Under the pieces are notes generated by a model, which was not told the origin of the DNA, searched no databases, and saw only the letters and a list, made by a program, of their open reading frames with translations. The position numbers were made by a program, and so were the translations under genes. A DNA stretch of 64,000 nt from Sulfurimonas marina. Lineage in GTDB: Bacteria; Campylobacterota; Campylobacteria; Campylobacterales; Sulfurimonadaceae. Numbering within the stretch: position 1 is the stretch's first letter; each line of letters opens with the position of its first letter. The stretch lies in contig NZ_CP041165.1 in NCBI RefSeq assembly GCF_014905095.1, positions 2,046,001-2,110,000 of the forward strand, written 5' to 3'. This document shows positions 53,036 to 64,000 of the stretch, piece after piece.

Positions 53036-55201
53036 CTACGAAGCTTTAACGATAAGTCCTTCATTAAGGGCTTGTTTGCTATACAACTCATGTTCCACAC
53101 GAACAACCGTATCTTCAATATTCTCTTTCTCTTTATAAAATGTCGTAGCATAATTTGACGCTGTTTTAATCGATGACTGTAACTTGCTTATGATTATCTC
53201 TAAATCATCTTTAGATACATTTTTCAAAACCAGTGCATACTTTTTCTTATCCCATTTAATAATAAGGTCATCGTCTCTTAAGAGTTTTTGCAGTGTTTTT
53301 GCAACTTTTACAACCGTGGCATCATCCACTTCCACACCGCAAAGTTCCAACATAACAAAGGCAAAATTTGTATCTGTTTTTCTCTGATACTTCACTACCA
53401 TTTCCATCTTCTCATAAAAATAACTTTTGTTATACAGACCCGTCAGACGGTCTGTCACTTTCAGCTTCTCATAGTTCTCAATGTAACGCTTTCTTTTCTC
53501 TTTTTTCATACGGGAATTATCTGCGATAATAAACCCCTCAACCACACCGAAAAGCCCTTCGTTTACACTAAAATCAAAAAAGCGTACAGCCCCCTCTTCA
53601 TAAAGTTCCGTATATTGTTTAAAAAGTGTAGGGACAGATGTACCGAGATCTTTAAGATACTTTTTGAGCACTGTAAACCCGTCTTTATATGAGAGTTCTT
53701 TAAAAAGTTCGTCAAACTCCTCTTTATCCTCATCCGACATCACATAAGGATTTTTTGCCTCCATCATATGACTTGTACAGGCAAAGTGTTTTGAGTAAAA
53801 ATAAACAAGTGCCGCTACCGCTTTTTTTGGAGTATCTGCATTGATCGTTACCGTACCGTAAGTATGTTTTATCTTTGGATTGTGTGCGAGATACGCGCCC
53901 ACTCCCTGCCAAAGATTATCTAACGCTCTCGTACTCCAATATTTGGGCTGCACAAAGCTGCGTCCCAGTTCTACTGAATTGCCGCAATACTCTTGAAAAT
54001 CCTCACTGAATGTACAAAGATTGTATGTGTAAAGCCCGGCACGACCTTTGTCTTTGATAATATCTTCACACTCACCGATTCTATATGCACCCACAATCTC
54101 CAGCTCATCGTTGTCCCAAAGGATCAGATGTTTGTAGTATTCATCGTAGAGATCGTTGTCGTGTGAGAGTCCCGTTCCTCCGCCAATCGCACGAAATGAG
54201 ATCTCACGCACACGTCCAAGCTCACGTAAAAGAAATGGGGAATTTTTCGCATCTGCTAAAATAATAGACTTGCCGTCAGCAGTATCTCCTAGATACTCCG
54301 CTCTTTGTACCTCGTCTTTGAGCATCTTTTTATTTTTCGGAGCCCCTATTGTGATCTCTGTTTTTAAGATATCCCCTTTATTACTCTCCAGTGTATAGAG
54401 GTGCTGATAAAACATCTTTACATACTCATCTACAGTCACCTCTTTATTTGCAAACGACTCAGGCGGGATCACCTTTCCGATCGTAAAACAAAGCGGCTTT
54501 TGTTTTGAAGCATTTACAAACTCTTTCATCAGTAGCAGAGCCGATATTTTATTCGGCAAAAGAAGTGAAGCAAGATAAAAAGGGAATGAGTTTCTCCCTT
54601 TAATTTTGATTGGAAGTATAGGTGTTTTTGTTTTTTGTGCGATTTTAAAAAAGCTTGCTTTCCAGTCATCATCTTTAAGCCCTTTTACAAATGAAAAACG
54701 GTTCACATATCCCGCGGGAAAAATGATCACGGCCTCCTCATTCTCTAGCGCTTCGTGAATAGCTTTTAAACTCCCTTTTGTAATTCCCCCTGTAACGTCA
54801 ACCGGAATCCCCCAGCCAAACCCTTTTGAGATCTCGTACATCATAGAGTTGATAAGCAGTTTTACCGTTTTGTTCTCTCTGGCATTTGCGATCAGCTGTA
54901 CTAGTGAAAACGAATCCTGCATCCCTGTAGGATGGTTTGCAATCACTAAAAGCCTACCCGTTGCAGGGATATTTTTCAACTCTTGAGGCTTGGCAGTATA
55001 GGTGATCCCAAGCCCATCTAAAAGATTGTCTGTAAAATCAAGACCCCTTAGATGCTCTTTGCCTCTGTCTATCTCGTTTAAACGCTTCTCACAAAACAGT
55101 TTTTGCAAACTACTTATAGTTAATTTTCTCGCCCAACTCGGTAACGTTTTCATCTGTTTTGAAAGGTTTACATCAACCAATCTTTGTACATCCATTATCA
55201 T
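53036..55201 (-). CDS. PlsC-like acyltransferase fused to GNAT-like acyltransferase and degenerate GGDEF
   Basis: This 721 aa protein has three parts. An N-terminal lysophospholipid acyltransferase domain (about 60-265) has the catalytic NHPTGMQD and VIFPAGYVNRF. A middle OlsB/hemolysin-like GNAT domain (about 300-470, REISFRAIGGG, ELGRSFVQPKYW) is the type that acylates ornithine or similar amines. A C-terminal GGDEF-fold domain (about 585-715) starts TDRLTGLYNKSYF, but its active site reads WDKKKYALVL instead of RxGGDEF. It should make a two-chain aminolipid, with the dead GGDEF as a regulatory or nucleotide-binding unit. Start ATGA overlaps the stop of the MMPL transporter. Confidence 0.85.
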   Translation of the reverse strand: MIMDVQRLVDVNLSKQMKTLPSWARKLTISSLQKLFCEKRLNEIDRGKEHLRGLDFTDNLLDGLGITYTAKPQELKNIPATGRLLVIANHPTGMQDSFSLVQLIANARENKTVKLLINSMMYEISKGFGWGIPVDVTGGITKGSLKAIHEALENEEAVIIFPAGYVNRFSFVKGLKDDDWKASFFKIAQKTKTPILPIKIKGRNSFPFYLASLLLPNKISALLLMKEFVNASKQKPLCFTIGKVIPPESFANKEVTVDEYVKMFYQHLYTLESNKGDILKTEITIGAPKNKKMLKDEVQRAEYLGDTADGKSIILADAKNSPFLLRELGRVREISFRAIGGGTGLSHDNDLYDEYYKHLILWDNDELEIVGAYRIGECEDIIKDKGRAGLYTYNLCTFSEDFQEYCGNSVELGRSFVQPKYWSTRALDNLWQGVGAYLAHNPKIKHTYGTVTINADTPKKAVAALVYFYSKHFACTSHMMEAKNPYVMSDEDKEEFDELFKELSYKDGFTVLKKYLKDLGTSVPTLFKQYTELYEEGAVRFFDFSVNEGLFGVVEGFIIADNSRMKKEKRKRYIENYEKLKVTDRLTGLYNKSYFYEKMEMVVKYQRKTDTNFAFVMLELCGVEVDDATVVKVAKTLQKLLRDDDLIIKWDKKKYALVLKNVSKDDLEIIISKLQSSIKTASNYATTFYKEKENIEDTVVRVEHELYSKQALNEGLIVKAS

Positions 55202-59093: not shown

Positions 59094-59855
59094 TTATAGG
59101 CGATTGTTCTTAAGAACGCGTTTATGAAAGTCTCTTGGCTTGAGCCCTGTTTTAATCTTCTCGTTTTTCCAAACTAACAGTGTCTTTTTATCGTTTTGGT
59201 GGTTGATCATAGTCATTTTTCCGACTCTCCACACACCCGATATCTTTTTATAGTTTTCAAAAAGTGCAGTTTTTAAAAGCTCATGCTTTCGATCGTAATA
59301 GTCAACTTTTTTGATAAGAAACGTTTTTGGATCAACCCATGAGACCTGCTTTGTATAGCCTGAGTATTTACTTTTAGGTTTTCTCTGCACCTCATACATC
59401 TTTTTCCCATCAAGTGTAACGAGCTTTGCGTCCCCCTTAAAGATAAACTTATCGATACTAAAAGAGCTTAAGTCCTCATAGGAAAATTCACTCCCCATAA
59501 ATGAGCCCGATTTACTCTTGGATGCTATACGCTTCACACGTTTAAGAGCCGGGAGATAGAGCCACTGATCGTCATCTTTATTTACGTGTTCATAGTTTAA
59601 GAACTTCGTCCCTTTGACATCGGCAGGTGAAAGGAAAGTCATCAAAGACTTGTCCCCCGAATCGTTTTCAAGTACGATCATCTTCATTTTGCGCTCACGC
59701 TTTTGAGCACTTGCATTGATTAAAGTCATAGTCATCTCAGAAGATGAGTCTTTAAATCCACTCATTGCAGCTTCACTCTTTTTAGCTACATCCAAGTTGC
59801 TTATAGCCAATACATTAATCGACAACATACCTAAAACTATCAGTTTTTTCACCAT
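59094..59855 (-). CDS. Outer-membrane lipoprotein-sorting (LolA-like) protein
   Basis: This protein of about 253 aa has a signal peptide and the LolA-superfamily fold of COG2834-type proteins (SSEMTMTLINASAQKRERKM, DQWLYLPALKRVKRIAS, GSFMGSEFSYEDLSSF). Such proteins accompany MMPL/RND transporters and probably carry lipid through the periplasm. I take the ATG at 59855, 9 nt after AGGGG; the ATG at 59864 touches the binding site. It is the first gene of the four-gene operon. Confidence 0.85.
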   Translation of the reverse strand: MVKKLIVLGMLSINVLAISNLDVAKKSEAAMSGFKDSSSEMTMTLINASAQKRERKMKMIVLENDSGDKSLMTFLSPADVKGTKFLNYEHVNKDDDQWLYLPALKRVKRIASKSKSGSFMGSEFSYEDLSSFSIDKFIFKGDAKLVTLDGKKMYEVQRKPKSKYSGYTKQVSWVDPKTFLIKKVDYYDRKHELLKTALFENYKKISGVWRVGKMTMINHQNDKKTLLVWKNEKIKTGLKPRDFHKRVLKNNRL

Positions 59856-60044: not shown

Positions 60045-60059
60045 TGATAGTAATTATCA
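60045..60059. promoter_or_regulatory. Fur-type 7-1-7 box 1, upstream of the EAL gene
   Basis: TGATAGTAATTATCA matches the 7-1-7 Fur consensus (TGATAATnATTATCA) at 13 of 14 defined positions. A TATAAT begins 2 nt downstream (60061-60066), so a bound repressor would block the promoter. The 59865-60130 gap holds no gene. Confidence 0.65.
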
Positions 60060-60096
60060 TTATAATATATTTTAAAGGTATAAAGGGCTAGTATTA

Positions 60097-60111
60097 TGAT
60101 ATCAATTATCA
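60097..60111. promoter_or_regulatory. Fur-type 7-1-7 box 2, just before the EAL ribosome binding site
   Basis: TGATATCAATTATCA has a perfect right half-site and 5 of 7 in the left. It lies 8 nt before AAGGAG and 20 nt before the ATG. An identical 15-mer is at 60897-60911. Confidence 0.6.
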
Positions 60112-60130
60112 AAATACTAAGGAGTTACCT

Positions 60131-60853
60131 ATGAAAACAAACCTCACGCTCCCCCTTTCTATCATCTTAAATGAGAGTTACGGAGCTGCTTATGAGCCTA
60201 TTATATCTCTTGATACAATGGAGATTTACGGCTATGAAGCTTTAAGCCGTTTTCGTCATGAAAACAAAAATGTACCTCCCGATCAGTTCTTTAATGCGAT
60301 CCATGACGATACGGAAACGTTTTTCCATTTTGAATCGATACTAAAACGTTTTCAACTCGATAATCGTCCCAAAGGATACAGACTATTTCTCAATCTTGAT
60401 CCCCACGTAGTTTTAAACAACGATCATGTAGAGTACTGGGTACGCCTTTTTACGACACACGCAGATATAGAACTGGAGATCATAGAGAACTCGCACGATC
60501 ACAATTTGCCTCTTATAGAGGAGTTTATGGGTTGGATGGACCAACACAACATCTCTTATGCCTACGATGATTTTTTAAAACCTAACACACTCTTTTTTAC
60601 CTCTTTGTTTCACAGGGCAAAAACTATCAAGCTTGATCTTGACGTGATCAATAAGATCAAAAAAGATTATGCCTACATAGATGTAGCCAAAGGGATTGTA
60701 AACTATGTAAGAAGCTCAAAACGTTTGAGTCTGCTCGAAGGGATAGAGACAAAAGAGGATCTTGAGATCGCCAAAGAGCTGGGAGTTGATCTGATTCAAG
60801 GGTACTATTTTCAAGATCAGTTTATCAAAAAATGGCATCAAGATATTAATTGA
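60131..60853 (+). CDS. Stand-alone EAL-domain cyclic di-GMP phosphodiesterase
   Basis: This 240 aa protein is an EAL domain with no sensor part. Catalytic elements appear intact: YGYEALSRF (EAL), LFLNLDP (Asn), ELEIIENS (Glu), YAYDDF (Asp pair), IKLDLD (Lys), LLEGIETKEDL (Glu) and QGYYF (Gln). It should hydrolyse cyclic di-GMP. AAGGAG lies 6 nt before the ATG. Two Fur-type boxes lie upstream, so expression is probably raised by iron limitation, or controlled by another Fur-family protein. Confidence 0.9.
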   Translation: MKTNLTLPLSIILNESYGAAYEPIISLDTMEIYGYEALSRFRHENKNVPPDQFFNAIHDDTETFFHFESILKRFQLDNRPKGYRLFLNLDPHVVLNNDHVEYWVRLFTTHADIELEIIENSHDHNLPLIEEFMGWMDQHNISYAYDDFLKPNTLFFTSLFHRAKTIKLDLDVINKIKKDYAYIDVAKGIVNYVRSSKRLSLLEGIETKEDLEIAKELGVDLIQGYYFQDQFIKKWHQDIN

Positions 60854-60865
60854 TAATGAATATCA
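60851..60865. promoter_or_regulatory. Fur-type 7-1-7 box 3, at the EAL stop codon
   Basis: TGATAATGAATATCA has a perfect left half-site and 6 of 7 in the right. It begins exactly at the TGA stop of the EAL gene and faces the next short ORF. Confidence 0.6.
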
Positions 60866-60896
60866 ATTCTATTTAAGCTTTCTTTCGTTACAATTT

Positions 60897-60911
60897 TGAT
60901 ATCAATTATCA
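60897..60911. promoter_or_regulatory. Fur-type 7-1-7 box 4, before the 18-codon ORF
   Basis: TGATATCAATTATCA, an exact copy of box 2, ends 13 nt before the ATG at 60925 and 2 nt before AAGGAA. The reuse of an identical box next to a second start codon suggests shared regulation. Confidence 0.6.
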
Positions 60912-60924
60912 ATAAGGAAAGAAA

Positions 60925-60981
60925 ATGTTTGAAATAGAAAATAAAAAAAACATTGTAAAACTTAGTGGCAAACCTTGCTAA
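60925..60981 (+). CDS. 18-codon ORF under a Fur-type box, ending in Cys
   Basis: ATG at 60925 with AAGGAA 5 nt upstream opens a frame MFEIENKKNIVKLSGKPC and stops at TAA. It may be a leader peptide, a true micro-peptide, or a remnant of a longer gene. An AGGAGG at 61010-61015 with no nearby ATG follows it, and a startless open frame runs 61064-61264, which gives some support to decay of an older gene. Confidence 0.35.
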   Translation: MFEIENKKNIVKLSGKPC

Positions 60982-61077
60982 ATAAAACTTTATTGTAACA
61001 ACTTAAAAAAGGAGGTTATATATATTAAAAAACTAATGATAAATACAAGAGTGACATACATGAAGATTTTTATGTCA

Positions 61078-61130
61078 TGGCATCTATTTTTATGAAGGTT
61101 GTTTTGCTCAGAAACATCAAATAGATGCCA
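61078..61130. repeat. 12-bp inverted repeat in the Fur-box intergenic region
   Basis: TGGCATCTATTT (61078-61089) pairs perfectly with AAATAGATGCCA (61119-61130) across a 29-nt loop. In a transcript started near the Fur-type boxes it would form a long stem upstream of the terminator-like hairpin at 61209-61240. The rest of 60982-61255 holds no gene I can support. Confidence 0.45.
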
Positions 61131-61208
61131 AATCAGTTATAAACGCGGCTATTTCTCCTAAAATACATAGTCAAAATTTAGTTAATAAAATTCAAAAAAT
61201 TCAAGGCT

Positions 61209-61240
61209 ATTTGCATACCTCTCATACAAGGTATGCAAAT
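61209..61240. terminator. Strong hairpin before the Fur-like gene stop
   Basis: ATTTGCATACCT and AGGTATGCAAAT form a perfect 12-bp stem with loop CTCATACA. CTTTTCTC follows on the plus strand. It lies 15 nt from the stop of the convergent Fur-like gene and likely ends transcripts from both sides. Confidence 0.65.
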
Positions 61241-61255
61241 CTTTTCTCACTTTAT

Positions 61256-61579
61256 CTATTGTAACACCTCAACTTCATCACAATCTACATCTTTTTTCAG
61301 CAGATACCCTTTAGGTATTTTATTTACCGTAATAAGCAGATCAAGCTCTTCAAAAAACTTTATGTGTCTTGAAACTGTTGCATACCCTGCACCTACTCTC
61401 TCCTCTTTAAGTTTTTTAGAGATAAACTCTATACTCACCGGATAACTTTGCGCATGTAAAATTTTCAGTACACGCTCACGTTGATCGGAGTAGCGCAGTC
61501 TGTTTTTCTTGATATGGTCATAGATAGAAGTTCTAAATTTTGTTAAACTAGCTCGCCCTTTAGCACTGATATATAACAT
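61256..61579 (-). CDS. Fur-family protein reduced to the DNA-binding domain
   Basis: This 107 aa protein has the winged-helix half of Fur: RYSDQRERVLKILHAQ, YPVSIEFISKKLKEE and GAGYATVSRHIKFFEELDLL (recognition helix region). It stops after GYLLKKDVDCDEVEVLQ, so the metal-binding dimerisation domain of normal 140-150 aa Fur/PerR is missing. A GGAG site 8 nt before the ATG supports the start. It is last in a porin and di-haem protein operon. Whether it dimerises or senses metal at all is open. Confidence 0.8.
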   Translation of the reverse strand: MLYISAKGRASLTKFRTSIYDHIKKNRLRYSDQRERVLKILHAQSYPVSIEFISKKLKEERVGAGYATVSRHIKFFEELDLLITVNKIPKGYLLKKDVDCDEVEVLQ

Positions 61580-61593
61580 CTATTTTTCTCCTT

Positions 61594-62832
61594 TTAAGGT
61601 GCCAACGGTTCTAAAAGATGCTCGTAACGTTTATCTGTCAGAGTTCTTAAGAATGCTTCAAGAGCACGTATCTTCTCATCACTTAATGCCTTTGTATCGC
61701 TCAGCTTTTCATGGTTGATCGTTGCATTGTAATCATTTGCATCCCAAGGTTCAAATGTTTCCGGATTTATCGGATGATCTCCCTGTCCTGCCATATGATC
61801 GTAAAACTCCAGTACTGTACGCAAATTTTGAAATACTCCGTTACTCATATATGGTGCAGTGATTGCCACATTTCTAAGAGTCGGTACCTTTGTTTTTCCA
61901 TAATGAGCAGGGTCATTCACAGTTCCTCCAAGTCCTAAAAAGGTTGCATTTGCATCTTGAAGTCCTAACTCTGCACGTCTCTCCATCGCTGTAACATTTC
62001 TAGGCGTGCCTATGTTTTCAAACTCATAGTTGGTAAAAAGCTCATGCTTGGAAGCTTCGCTTTGAGAGTTCAGTGTATGACACAGAGCGCAGTTTGTATT
62101 GTTCTCCGAGAAGAAAAGGGAGTACCCGAGTATCTCGGCATCGCTCCAGTTATCAGCTTCATAACACTCACTTGTAAGTCCGCCGTTTTCCTTACACTCC
62201 AAAAAGCGATCGTACTTGGAATCAAACGGTGCAAACAGCTCCGTTTTTTCAAACTTCCCGATCGCCTCACGCATCGCCTCATAAGAGCTATTCACATCAT
62301 CGAAAATATCTGCACCGTACAGTGTTTCAAACGCCTCTAAATATTGCGTATTCTCCTTGATGCGATCGATTACCGCACTCTTATCGCTCATCATCATCTC
62401 CGCACCGTCAAGCGGCGGCCCCCCGGCCTGAACTTTCAATGTTGCTGCACGACCGTCGTGAAACTGTCCCCCGATATATACACCGTTTTGCTGTGAAAAC
62501 TCAGGAGAAAACTGTGCATACGCAGCTGTCGGGGCATTGCGCCCTCCAAGACTTAGCCCGTCATCACCCACGGAGAATGCTCCGTGAACAAAGATACTTT
62601 GATCAACACCATCCTCTGCAAAACGCGCATCTACAAATCCATGCTCTGGATCGTGACACGTTGCACAAGATGTCCCGCGGTTTAATGAGAGGTTTTGATC
62701 AAAAAAGAGTTGCGCGCCCAACTCCTCTTTTGTGATGCTTTGCTGAGCGGGTATCTGCTCACCGCCGCCCCCGCCGCAACCGCTAAGTACAAACGTTGCC
62801 GCGCTTAATAAAACTACAGAATACTTCATCAT
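61594..62832 (-). CDS. MauG/CCP-type di-haem cytochrome c lipoprotein
   Basis: This 412 aa protein has a lipobox (FVLSGCGGGGG, Cys near 19) and two haem c motifs, CATCHDPEHGF near residue 56 and CALCHTLN near 240, in the layout of bacterial cytochrome c peroxidases and MauG-like enzymes. It may reduce H2O2 in the periplasm or oxidise a partner. It begins 6 nt after the porin gene and precedes the Fur-like gene by 14 nt. Confidence 0.88.
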   Translation of the reverse strand: MMKYSVVLLSAATFVLSGCGGGGGEQIPAQQSITKEELGAQLFFDQNLSLNRGTSCATCHDPEHGFVDARFAEDGVDQSIFVHGAFSVGDDGLSLGGRNAPTAAYAQFSPEFSQQNGVYIGGQFHDGRAATLKVQAGGPPLDGAEMMMSDKSAVIDRIKENTQYLEAFETLYGADIFDDVNSSYEAMREAIGKFEKTELFAPFDSKYDRFLECKENGGLTSECYEADNWSDAEILGYSLFFSENNTNCALCHTLNSQSEASKHELFTNYEFENIGTPRNVTAMERRAELGLQDANATFLGLGGTVNDPAHYGKTKVPTLRNVAITAPYMSNGVFQNLRTVLEFYDHMAGQGDHPINPETFEPWDANDYNATINHEKLSDTKALSDEKIRALEAFLRTLTDKRYEHLLEPLAP

Positions 62833-62838
62833 ATTTCC

Positions 62839-64000
62839 TTAGAAAATAAACCCTAAAGATAAAGCAAAAGAGTTTTCATCGGCAAGTTTTGCATCAACTC
62901 CGTAGTCTCTCACCTTATAGTTTGTTTTAAGTACTACACGCGGATCGGGATAGTAAGCAAAGCCTCCCGTATATTCGAAAAAGCGATTGTTATCTACATA
63001 TTGTGTTTTTGAAGATGCATCCATATCAAGACGCTCAATTTCACCTACAAGGTAAAACTCTCCCGGCAGTTTAAAAAGATTAAAGATGTCATACCCTAAA
63101 GTGATATACTGTCCGTTTACACGGTTTGAGATACCCGTATTTGGCAGTTGTTCGTAATCTCCCCCTAAAGCTCCGTAACTTGCAAGGGCCTGAATATCAA
63201 AACCGTTCTTTTTATAAGAGGCATGTATCTCAGCCATTGTGATTGTTACATCCGCATCACCCGTGTGTCCTGTCGTAGTCCCAGGCTTTGTCTCCTCTGC
63301 AATACCAGAAGTTCCGTAAAGAAATGAACCTCCGATATTTACTCCACTGCTAAGATCATAAGAAAGACGCGTTACAAATGAAAAATCATCCGTAAACTGA
63401 CGAGCTCCTAAACGTCCCTGCTGTATAAAAGTCCCTTCTGTAAAACTTCCTGCATCGGGAGATGTAACTACACCTGCATAATATTCAAAGTTGTCAATCG
63501 TTCCATGTGCAAGTACACCGTTTGTATGCCAAGTTGAAGGGATAATAAGTGTCTCAACTACCGGACGATCCGCTGTTAAAAACGATGTCGGTTCATGGTT
63601 CAGATTTGTAAGCCCCATCGGTGTAAGTATATGCCCTACACGAATGTTGAAACTCGGATCAAGTAAAAAATCTAAGTATGAGAACTCTACGATTGCATAC
63701 TTGTAGTTTTTAGTATTGTCGCTTCTAGCCCCTCCGTCTTCAAACTCTATCTCCGTATTCATAATAATGTAGTCGTTAAATTTGTAACCGATGTAAGGTA
63801 CAAAACGAACAATGTTAAACTCACCTTTATTACGGGTTTCGTTTGCCGTATCACTTGAATAGTTTTTAAAATCGTTGTACTTGGTATATTTATACTCTCC
63901 ATATCCCCCTATACTCAAACCATCCTGTGAAAAATAAACTTTCGATGCCGCACCACCCATAGCACTAAAACTTTCATACTCTTGTACATCTTTGTAGTTC
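62839..64000 (-). CDS. Outer-membrane porin-like beta-barrel (5' end outside window)
   Basis: The frame continues past ATG 63960 to the window edge (NYKDVQEYESFSA before MGGAAS), so the true start and signal peptide lie outside. About 386 residues are visible: strands with alternating hydrophobic and aromatic residues, GHILTPMGLTNLNHEP and a C-terminal SLGFIF with terminal Phe. This is the pattern of phosphate/oxyanion-type or general porins. First gene in the operon with the di-haem protein and the Fur-like gene. Confidence 0.8.
   Translation of the reverse strand, partial: NYKDVQEYESFSAMGGAASKVYFSQDGLSIGGYGEYKYTKYNDFKNYSSDTANETRNKGEFNIVRFVPYIGYKFNDYIIMNTEIEFEDGGARSDNTKNYKYAIVEFSYLDFLLDPSFNIRVGHILTPMGLTNLNHEPTSFLTADRPVVETLIIPSTWHTNGVLAHGTIDNFEYYAGVVTSPDAGSFTEGTFIQQGRLGARQFTDDFSFVTRLSYDLSSGVNIGGSFLYGTSGIAEETKPGTTTGHTGDADVTITMAEIHASYKKNGFDIQALASYGALGGDYEQLPNTGISNRVNGQYITLGYDIFNLFKLPGEFYLVGEIERLDMDASSKTQYVDNNRFFEYTGGFAYYPDPRVVLKTNYKVRDYGVDAKLADENSFALSLGFIF

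Follow-up and report, generated by a model that had tools for sequence, protein, structure and literature searches.

The analysed stretch of Sulfurimonas marina DNA, here called the window, is 64,000 nucleotides long and holds four Fur-type boxes near a gene for a stand-alone EAL-domain protein. All four 15-mers with TGATA..TATCA symmetry of the original prediction were found at the described places: two before the EAL gene, one on its stop codon and one before the next ORF, which has merely 18 codons (60925-60981). Boxes 2 and 4 were confirmed to be identical. Compared with TGATAATnATTATCA, boxes 1 and 3 have one mismatch and boxes 2 and 4 have two, with one perfect and one imperfect half-site in each box. 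A pattern search for exact TGATAn5TATCA in the 64-kb window returned boxes 1-4 only. The features of the locus are as follows.

60045-60059, unstranded: box 1, Fur-type, TGATAGTAATTATCA; predicted upstream operator of the EAL promoter; kept in G047, position kept in other orthologs
60071-60094, + strand: probable EAL promoter, read from the sequence, with TTTAAAGG at 60071-60078 and TAGTAT at 60089-60094, between boxes 1 and 2
60097-60111, unstranded: box 2, Fur-type, TGATATCAATTATCA; lies 52 bp from box 1 and covers the expected transcription start
60131-60853, + strand: stand-alone EAL-domain protein, 240 aa (Pfam EAL, 4.4e-30), DDFGTG loop altered to DDFLKP
60851-60865, unstranded: box 3, Fur-type, TGATAATGAATATCA; begins on the EAL TGA stop codon (60851-60853); predicted upstream operator of a second unit
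60872-60894, + strand: probable promoter of the second unit, likewise read from the sequence, with TTTAAG at 60872-60877 and TACAAT at 60889-60894, between boxes 3 and 4
60897-60911, unstranded: box 4, Fur-type, TGATATCAATTATCA, the same letters as box 2; 46 bp from box 3 (start to start)
60925-60981, + strand: 18-aa ORF MFEIENKKNIVKLSGKPC with Shine-Dalgarno sequence AAGGAAAG; micropeptide family MF[ED]xxNKxxIxx[LFI]xGK[PAT]C
61052-61077, + strand: AUGAAG hairpin 1, outer stem only, the inner stem being absent in this copy; 19.5 bits with hairpin model R1
61079-61129, + strand: AUGAAG hairpin 2, GGCATCTATTT-TTATGAAG-...-AAATAGATGCC; fold of -17.3 kcal/mol; R1 21.8 bits at 61084-61124
61210-61245, + strand: terminator-like hairpin, TTTGCATACCT/AGGTATGCAAA plus a T-rich tract, from sequence and fold
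61256-61579, - strand: 107-aa half-Fur, the winged-helix half of Fur only (Pfam FUR at residues 26-86; NCBIfam and PDB matches to the N-terminal part only), convergent to the second unit

The predicted structure of the EAL protein (pLDDT 87) showed an ordinary EAL fold, with 4q6j as the nearest PDB entry and further matches to RocR and YkuI. In an alignment of 11 relatives, EALSR (E36), N88, E116, D146, D147, K167, E203 and Q223 were invariant. The DDFG(T/A)GYSS loop was sought in the same alignment and was absent, the sequence being DDFLKPNT here and DD[FY]xKP in all relatives. The DDFGTG loop is described as required for EAL activity (PMC12943098) and as coordinating metal (PMC5301497), and its replacement in all 11 relatives makes hydrolysis doubtful. 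The original prediction had stated that iron directly controls cyclic di-GMP breakdown; Fur sites at the EAL gene stood up to analysis, but control of breakdown claims more than the sequences support, the catalytic loop motif being replaced across the family. The gene may thus be Fur-controlled and yet encode an effector that binds cyclic di-GMP or a protein, like YdiV or FimX, so that iron would alter the response and not the breakdown. FimX, an inactive EAL protein, is also without the motif (PMC5301497). The conservation of DD[FY]xKP[ND][ST] in 11/11 relatives looks like a selected change and not like decay. Against an effector role, the invariant residues, EALxR included, are those normally needed for metal binding and catalysis. 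From inactive EAL proteins several such metal or catalytic residues are usually gone. We regard a non-phosphodiesterase role as a serious, if tentative, alternative. Another cyclic-di-GMP-related protein, of unusual architecture, is encoded in the window at 53036-55201 (- strand), a 721-aa fusion of acyltransferase, GNAT-type and GGDEF parts.

To identify the operator type, sites with at most two mismatches to TGATAATnATTATCA were collected from the genome. Of 45 sites, 32 were inside ORFs and 13 were intergenic. Four of the intergenic sites are the boxes of this locus, six form pairs before iron-related operons, and three are single: one next to recA, one ahead of a 97-aa gene and one in the gap of a convergent gene pair. 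A one-mismatch box was noted at G000:C1:100488, between a 78-aa gene and recA. The pairs were found at 383675/383716 before a porin-feoA-feoB operon (FeoB confirmed), at 2114884/2114936 before imelysin and DHOR genes (Pfam; 52 apart, like boxes 1-2), and at 2242352/2242416 before an operon for a porin and an FMN-binding protein. Because the same motif stands in pairs before the feoAB, imelysin/DHOR and porin/FMN-binding operons, TGATAATnATTATCA was taken as the Fur operator of this genome. A Campylobacter-type Fur of 162 aa is encoded (4e-50 to C. jejuni Fur, 6d57/4ets). With this motif, the paired layout, an encoded Fur and boxes kept before EAL relatives, the description of the boxes as Fur-type operators was borne out. 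The porin gene behind the feo boxes (G000:C1:383756-385022, L040) is split into frames of 208 and 195 aa, possibly by a frameshift or as a disrupted gene. An iron island faces the EAL gene, with imelysin, DHOR, porin, a MauG-type di-haem protein and the half-Fur (61256-64000, - strand, and on to G000:C1:2114867); the 52-bp box pair before the imelysin gene of this convergent island lies just outside the window.

The main binder could instead be another Fur-family protein, either a PerR-like protein, encoded at 502021-502359, or the half-Fur, whose gene adjoins the locus, and the signal would then be peroxide or something else. In C. jejuni, katA and cj1386 respond to PerR and Fur alike (PMC9426514). 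However, feoAB, imelysin and other iron genes have the same boxes in the same paired layout, and the only consensus motif that could be recovered in C. jejuni was that for iron-dependent Fur repression (PMC4491227). The 107-aa protein is without the metal-binding/dimerisation domain and is therefore a poor candidate for a metal sensor. We consider a main binder other than Fur improbable, but the genome's PerR might also bind at these sites. The full-length Fur-family proteins of the genome are Fur and the PerR-like protein only, and for this reason the other metal that the original prediction had allowed for is less likely than iron.

The arrangement of the boxes was compared over the fetched loci. 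Boxes 1 and 2 enclose the probable EAL promoter, a call that leans on the Campylobacter promoter consensus. Among 36 distinct box pairs, 23 had a spacing of exactly 52 bp, or about five helical turns, and in most of the 36 a TTTAAG-like and a TAnnAT-like element lie between the boxes. Two repressor dimers bound to one DNA face around a promoter would give this operator-promoter-operator layout, which suggests repression. The original prediction had assigned all four boxes to the EAL gene. They do lie inside 870 bp, with boxes 2 and 4 identical, and boxes 3-4 might act on a single EAL regulatory region from downstream, for example by DNA looping. However, boxes 3-4 flank their own promoter-like TTTAAG...TACAAT, followed by a Shine-Dalgarno sequence and the conserved 18-aa ORF. 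In other genomes the 18-aa unit has a box pair to itself and no EAL gene nearby, and at most EAL orthologs there are no downstream boxes. A single regulatory region is thus very unlikely, and boxes 3-4 were reassigned to a second unit that has a probable promoter, an 18-aa ORF and tandem RNA hairpins of its own.

Conservation of the boxes was assessed in 135 Sulfurimonas genomes. Closely related EAL proteins are sporadic, being present in 11 of the 135 including the window's own, with two copies in one genome. All 10 relatives with readable upstream DNA of their own (50-94% identity, Sulfurimonas) have one or two boxes with at most two mismatches in front of the EAL gene or of the small, two-gene operon to which it belongs. 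Most have box pairs; G025 and one of the two G115 copies have a single box. In 4/10, the boxes precede a 53-aa gene that stands before the EAL gene. No box was found at the other EAL genes (0/13 with a scorable start, several of which had a short upstream region). The EAL relatives lie in different settings, next to ketol-acid reductoisomerase and bioD, to an unknown divergent gene or to an imelysin operon, yet keep the boxes, which thus move together with the gene. The G019 copy, its frame interrupted by one internal TAG, follows a DUF2325 gene at the end of an imelysin-DHOR-porin-permease cluster, and no box was found directly before DUF2325-EAL. An unknown protein of 266-280 aa (MRKIGFTKxK...VLPKTYxIN...) repeatedly adjoins Fur box pairs or the EAL gene (L085, L087, L102, L103, L135); a Pfam scan of the L087 copy gave no match.

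In the genome-wide scan called for by the original prediction, TGATAn5TATCA was found at 17 sites in 2.26 Mb compared with 3 for a reversed control pattern, and the same motif in pairs precedes the feoAB, imelysin and porin operons. Four of the 17 sites lie within these 867 bp, where about 0.007 would be expected at genome density, which excludes chance clustering. The concern that the motif is common at random AT-rich sites applies to loose matches with two mismatches (71 seen and 56 expected in the window, hence uninformative), whereas near-perfect matches are rare. Chance AT-rich palindromes, which the abundance of such loose matches would favor, can be set aside, since the exact pattern exceeds its control with four sites here and the boxes are conserved before EAL relatives of 50-76% protein identity but found at 0/13 other EAL genes.

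Fur control of the EAL gene is well supported by these sequence comparisons. Our main reading, to which we give a probability of roughly 0.8, is that the EAL gene belongs to the Fur regulon, that the operator pair represses its promoter until iron starvation, and that the second unit is co-induced. Iron-loaded Fur would occupy boxes 1 and 2 and block EAL transcription. Under iron starvation Fur would be released and the stand-alone EAL protein made, which would lower cyclic di-GMP or, if inactive, bind and sense it. The changed cyclic di-GMP state would bias cells to leaving or moving. Boxes 3-4 would likewise switch a separate transcript with the 18-aa peptide and the tandem AUGAAG-hairpin RNA, and if they act like boxes 1-2, the EAL protein and the RNA would be induced together.

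DNA search, pattern search and inspection of DUF2325 neighbourhoods turned up relatives of the 18-aa micropeptide (MFELNNKxxIKxFxGKPC type) behind Fur box pairs in about 12 genomes. At most of these loci a DUF2325 gene lies between the box pair and the ORF, and its end usually overlaps the next ATG by 8 nt. The ORF stands directly behind the boxes in the window, G047, G115 and G140; a search for DUF2325 in the window's genome found none. Entropy by codon position over the ORF family was 9.98/7.67/17.03, as expected of translated sequence. The idea that the region after box 4 is a decayed larger gene was rejected, the 18-aa ORF being a family with codon-position constraint. Just after the 18-aa ORF and ahead of the hairpins, L083, L084, L086, L095 and L096 share a strong Shine-Dalgarno sequence followed by a frame of two codons (ATG-NNN-stop). 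A second, Cys-rich DUF2325 type (7-8 Cys), like C. jejuni Cj1384, was seen at L114, L117, L121, L122 and L123; a Fur box lies about 204 bp ahead of it, and the gene that follows is a different one.

Behind the ORF, most units have a pair of hairpins, each with an [N]AUGAAG bulge on one side between outer and inner stem, in which AUGAAG is invariant. A MAFFT alignment of whole hairpins misplaced the stems, and hand-trimmed cores were used instead. In a set of 12 single hairpins, 12/12 pairs had two-sided changes, and 96.5% of cells pair compared with 62.6% after shuffling and at most 54% in slid controls; these covariation figures are favourable because the hairpins were chosen and trimmed by hand. 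In the tandem set, whose seed was also hand-trimmed, 17/23 pairs had two-sided changes. Model R1, built from the single hairpins and run over the 135 genomes blind to Fur boxes, gave its best matches at loci with box pairs. These included new loci: the second locus of G173 (behind a broken DUF2325), G172 and G166 (behind the 53-aa gene), G140 and G125. Tandem model R2 also matched outside its seed, at G025, the first G173 locus, G036 and one public record. The fetched G019 stretch has a box pair followed by hairpins, with no evident ORF. RNA-model matches in G143, G124, G137 and G140:C248 were discarded as false positives, being inside ORFs or without an upstream Fur box pair. In 371 genomes of the order sample outside the genus, the tandem model gave no match under strict filters. 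A search of Rfam gave no match near the gathering score; two matches (E about 0.5), to SNORD27 and csRNA, were discarded as chance level. A tandem hairpin RNA element in the genus is, as judged by comparative sequence analysis, well supported.

The window copy scored 21.7 bits with R2 (61052-61126; E 0.39 over 296 kb) at the expected place between ORF and terminator, and is probably a divergent, weak member of the family. Relative to G047, one extra T is present at 61067-61071, in the loop of hairpin 1, and would cause a frameshift in a 67-aa reading frame open in G047. This 67-aa ORF was dropped as a candidate. With the extra T in the loop and no Pfam match for the ORF, the region was read as RNA and not as protein. 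An 800-bp block (60801-61600) is 99% identical to G047, whose EAL protein is the 94% relative, with flanks at 86-92%; a further such block covers 59201-59400, and recombination or selection may be responsible. The 99% identity was rejected as proof of RNA function, as the block includes the 107-aa gene and recombination may explain it. At L128 (G173:C1, second locus), the box pair and tandem hairpins are kept around a broken DUF2325 gene that is fused to an end resembling the 18-aa peptide (...FTGRAC); here the RNA seems to have outlasted the DUF2325 gene.

Fur boxes stand at the promoter of the predicted short transcript both at boxes 3-4 and in all strong RNA relatives, and the predicted RNA is probably under Fur control. 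Boxes 3-4 may drive a new Fur-controlled Sulfurimonas RNA family, with a short transcript, two tandem AUGAAG hairpins and usually also the 18-aa peptide; that this is an iron-starvation small RNA co-induced with the cyclic-di-GMP protein we hold to be an even chance. Such a small RNA would act by pairing of its AUGAAG loops or by trapping a protein. Searches for a RyhB-type RNA in the group found none.

Because Fur- and Zur-controlled EAL genes are known in Vibrio, the link from metal to cyclic di-GMP is not in itself new. Such precedents exist for the EAL gene (PMC7641913, PMC12607878), and none was found for the RNA and the 18-aa peptide. What is new is that the EAL link is conserved as part of the Fur regulon in free-living, sulfur-oxidising Campylobacterota, that a double operator with rigid 52-bp spacing encloses the promoter, and that a micropeptide and a structured RNA element, neither of which was matched in the libraries searched, lie next to the EAL gene. 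Iron-starvation induction of the EAL protein together with the micropeptide/structured RNA unit is the most likely function. The motif predicts that iron chelation induces both transcripts and that the RNA is detectable in Sulfurimonas RNA-seq under iron starvation.

RyhB and HrrF are Fur-repressed small RNAs. The predicted transcript resembles them in being short, under Fur boxes, ended by a terminator and expected to be induced by iron starvation; it differs in its tandem hairpins with bulged AUGAAG, its frequent small ORFs, the lack of an Rfam family match and its confinement to the genus in the sample searched. YdiV/STM1697 and FimX are degenerate EAL proteins, YdiV being stand-alone. The protein described here shares with them an EAL fold with an altered active-site loop, and with YdiV the stand-alone form, but its metal and catalytic residues are intact, and the replacement is confined to the FGTG part of the loop. 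In C. jejuni, cj1384c (DUF2325) is Fur-repressed and has a Fur motif, according to excerpts of PMC4491227 and PMC9426514. Genes of the DUF2325 family are likewise the partners of the 18-aa ORF in Sulfurimonas, and one of them lies before the EAL gene of G019. Unlike the Sulfurimonas units, the C. jejuni gene encodes a Cys-rich protein and lies beside katA, and those excerpts mention no 18-aa ORF or tandem hairpins (PMC4491227, PMC9426514). In V. cholerae, vieSAB and cdgD are Fur-controlled GGDEF/EAL genes; on vieSAB the effect is activation, and it is reported to be iron-independent (PMC7641913). Both systems have Fur boxes directly at cyclic-di-GMP turnover genes, and in V. cholerae Fur is linked to biofilm (PMC7641913). 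In contrast to vieSAB, the gene described here is a stand-alone EAL gene with a double operator of repressor layout and iron-uptake neighbours. V. cholerae ZpdA is a Zur-repressed phosphodiesterase that couples zinc starvation to low cyclic di-GMP (PMC12607878). The two cases share an EAL gene with sites for a metalloregulator of the Fur family, binding being a prediction here. ZpdA responds to zinc through Zur, has an EAL-HDOD architecture and belongs to one horizontally acquired island, whereas the present gene has Fur-type sites, encodes an EAL domain only and represents a trait conserved in a free-living genus.
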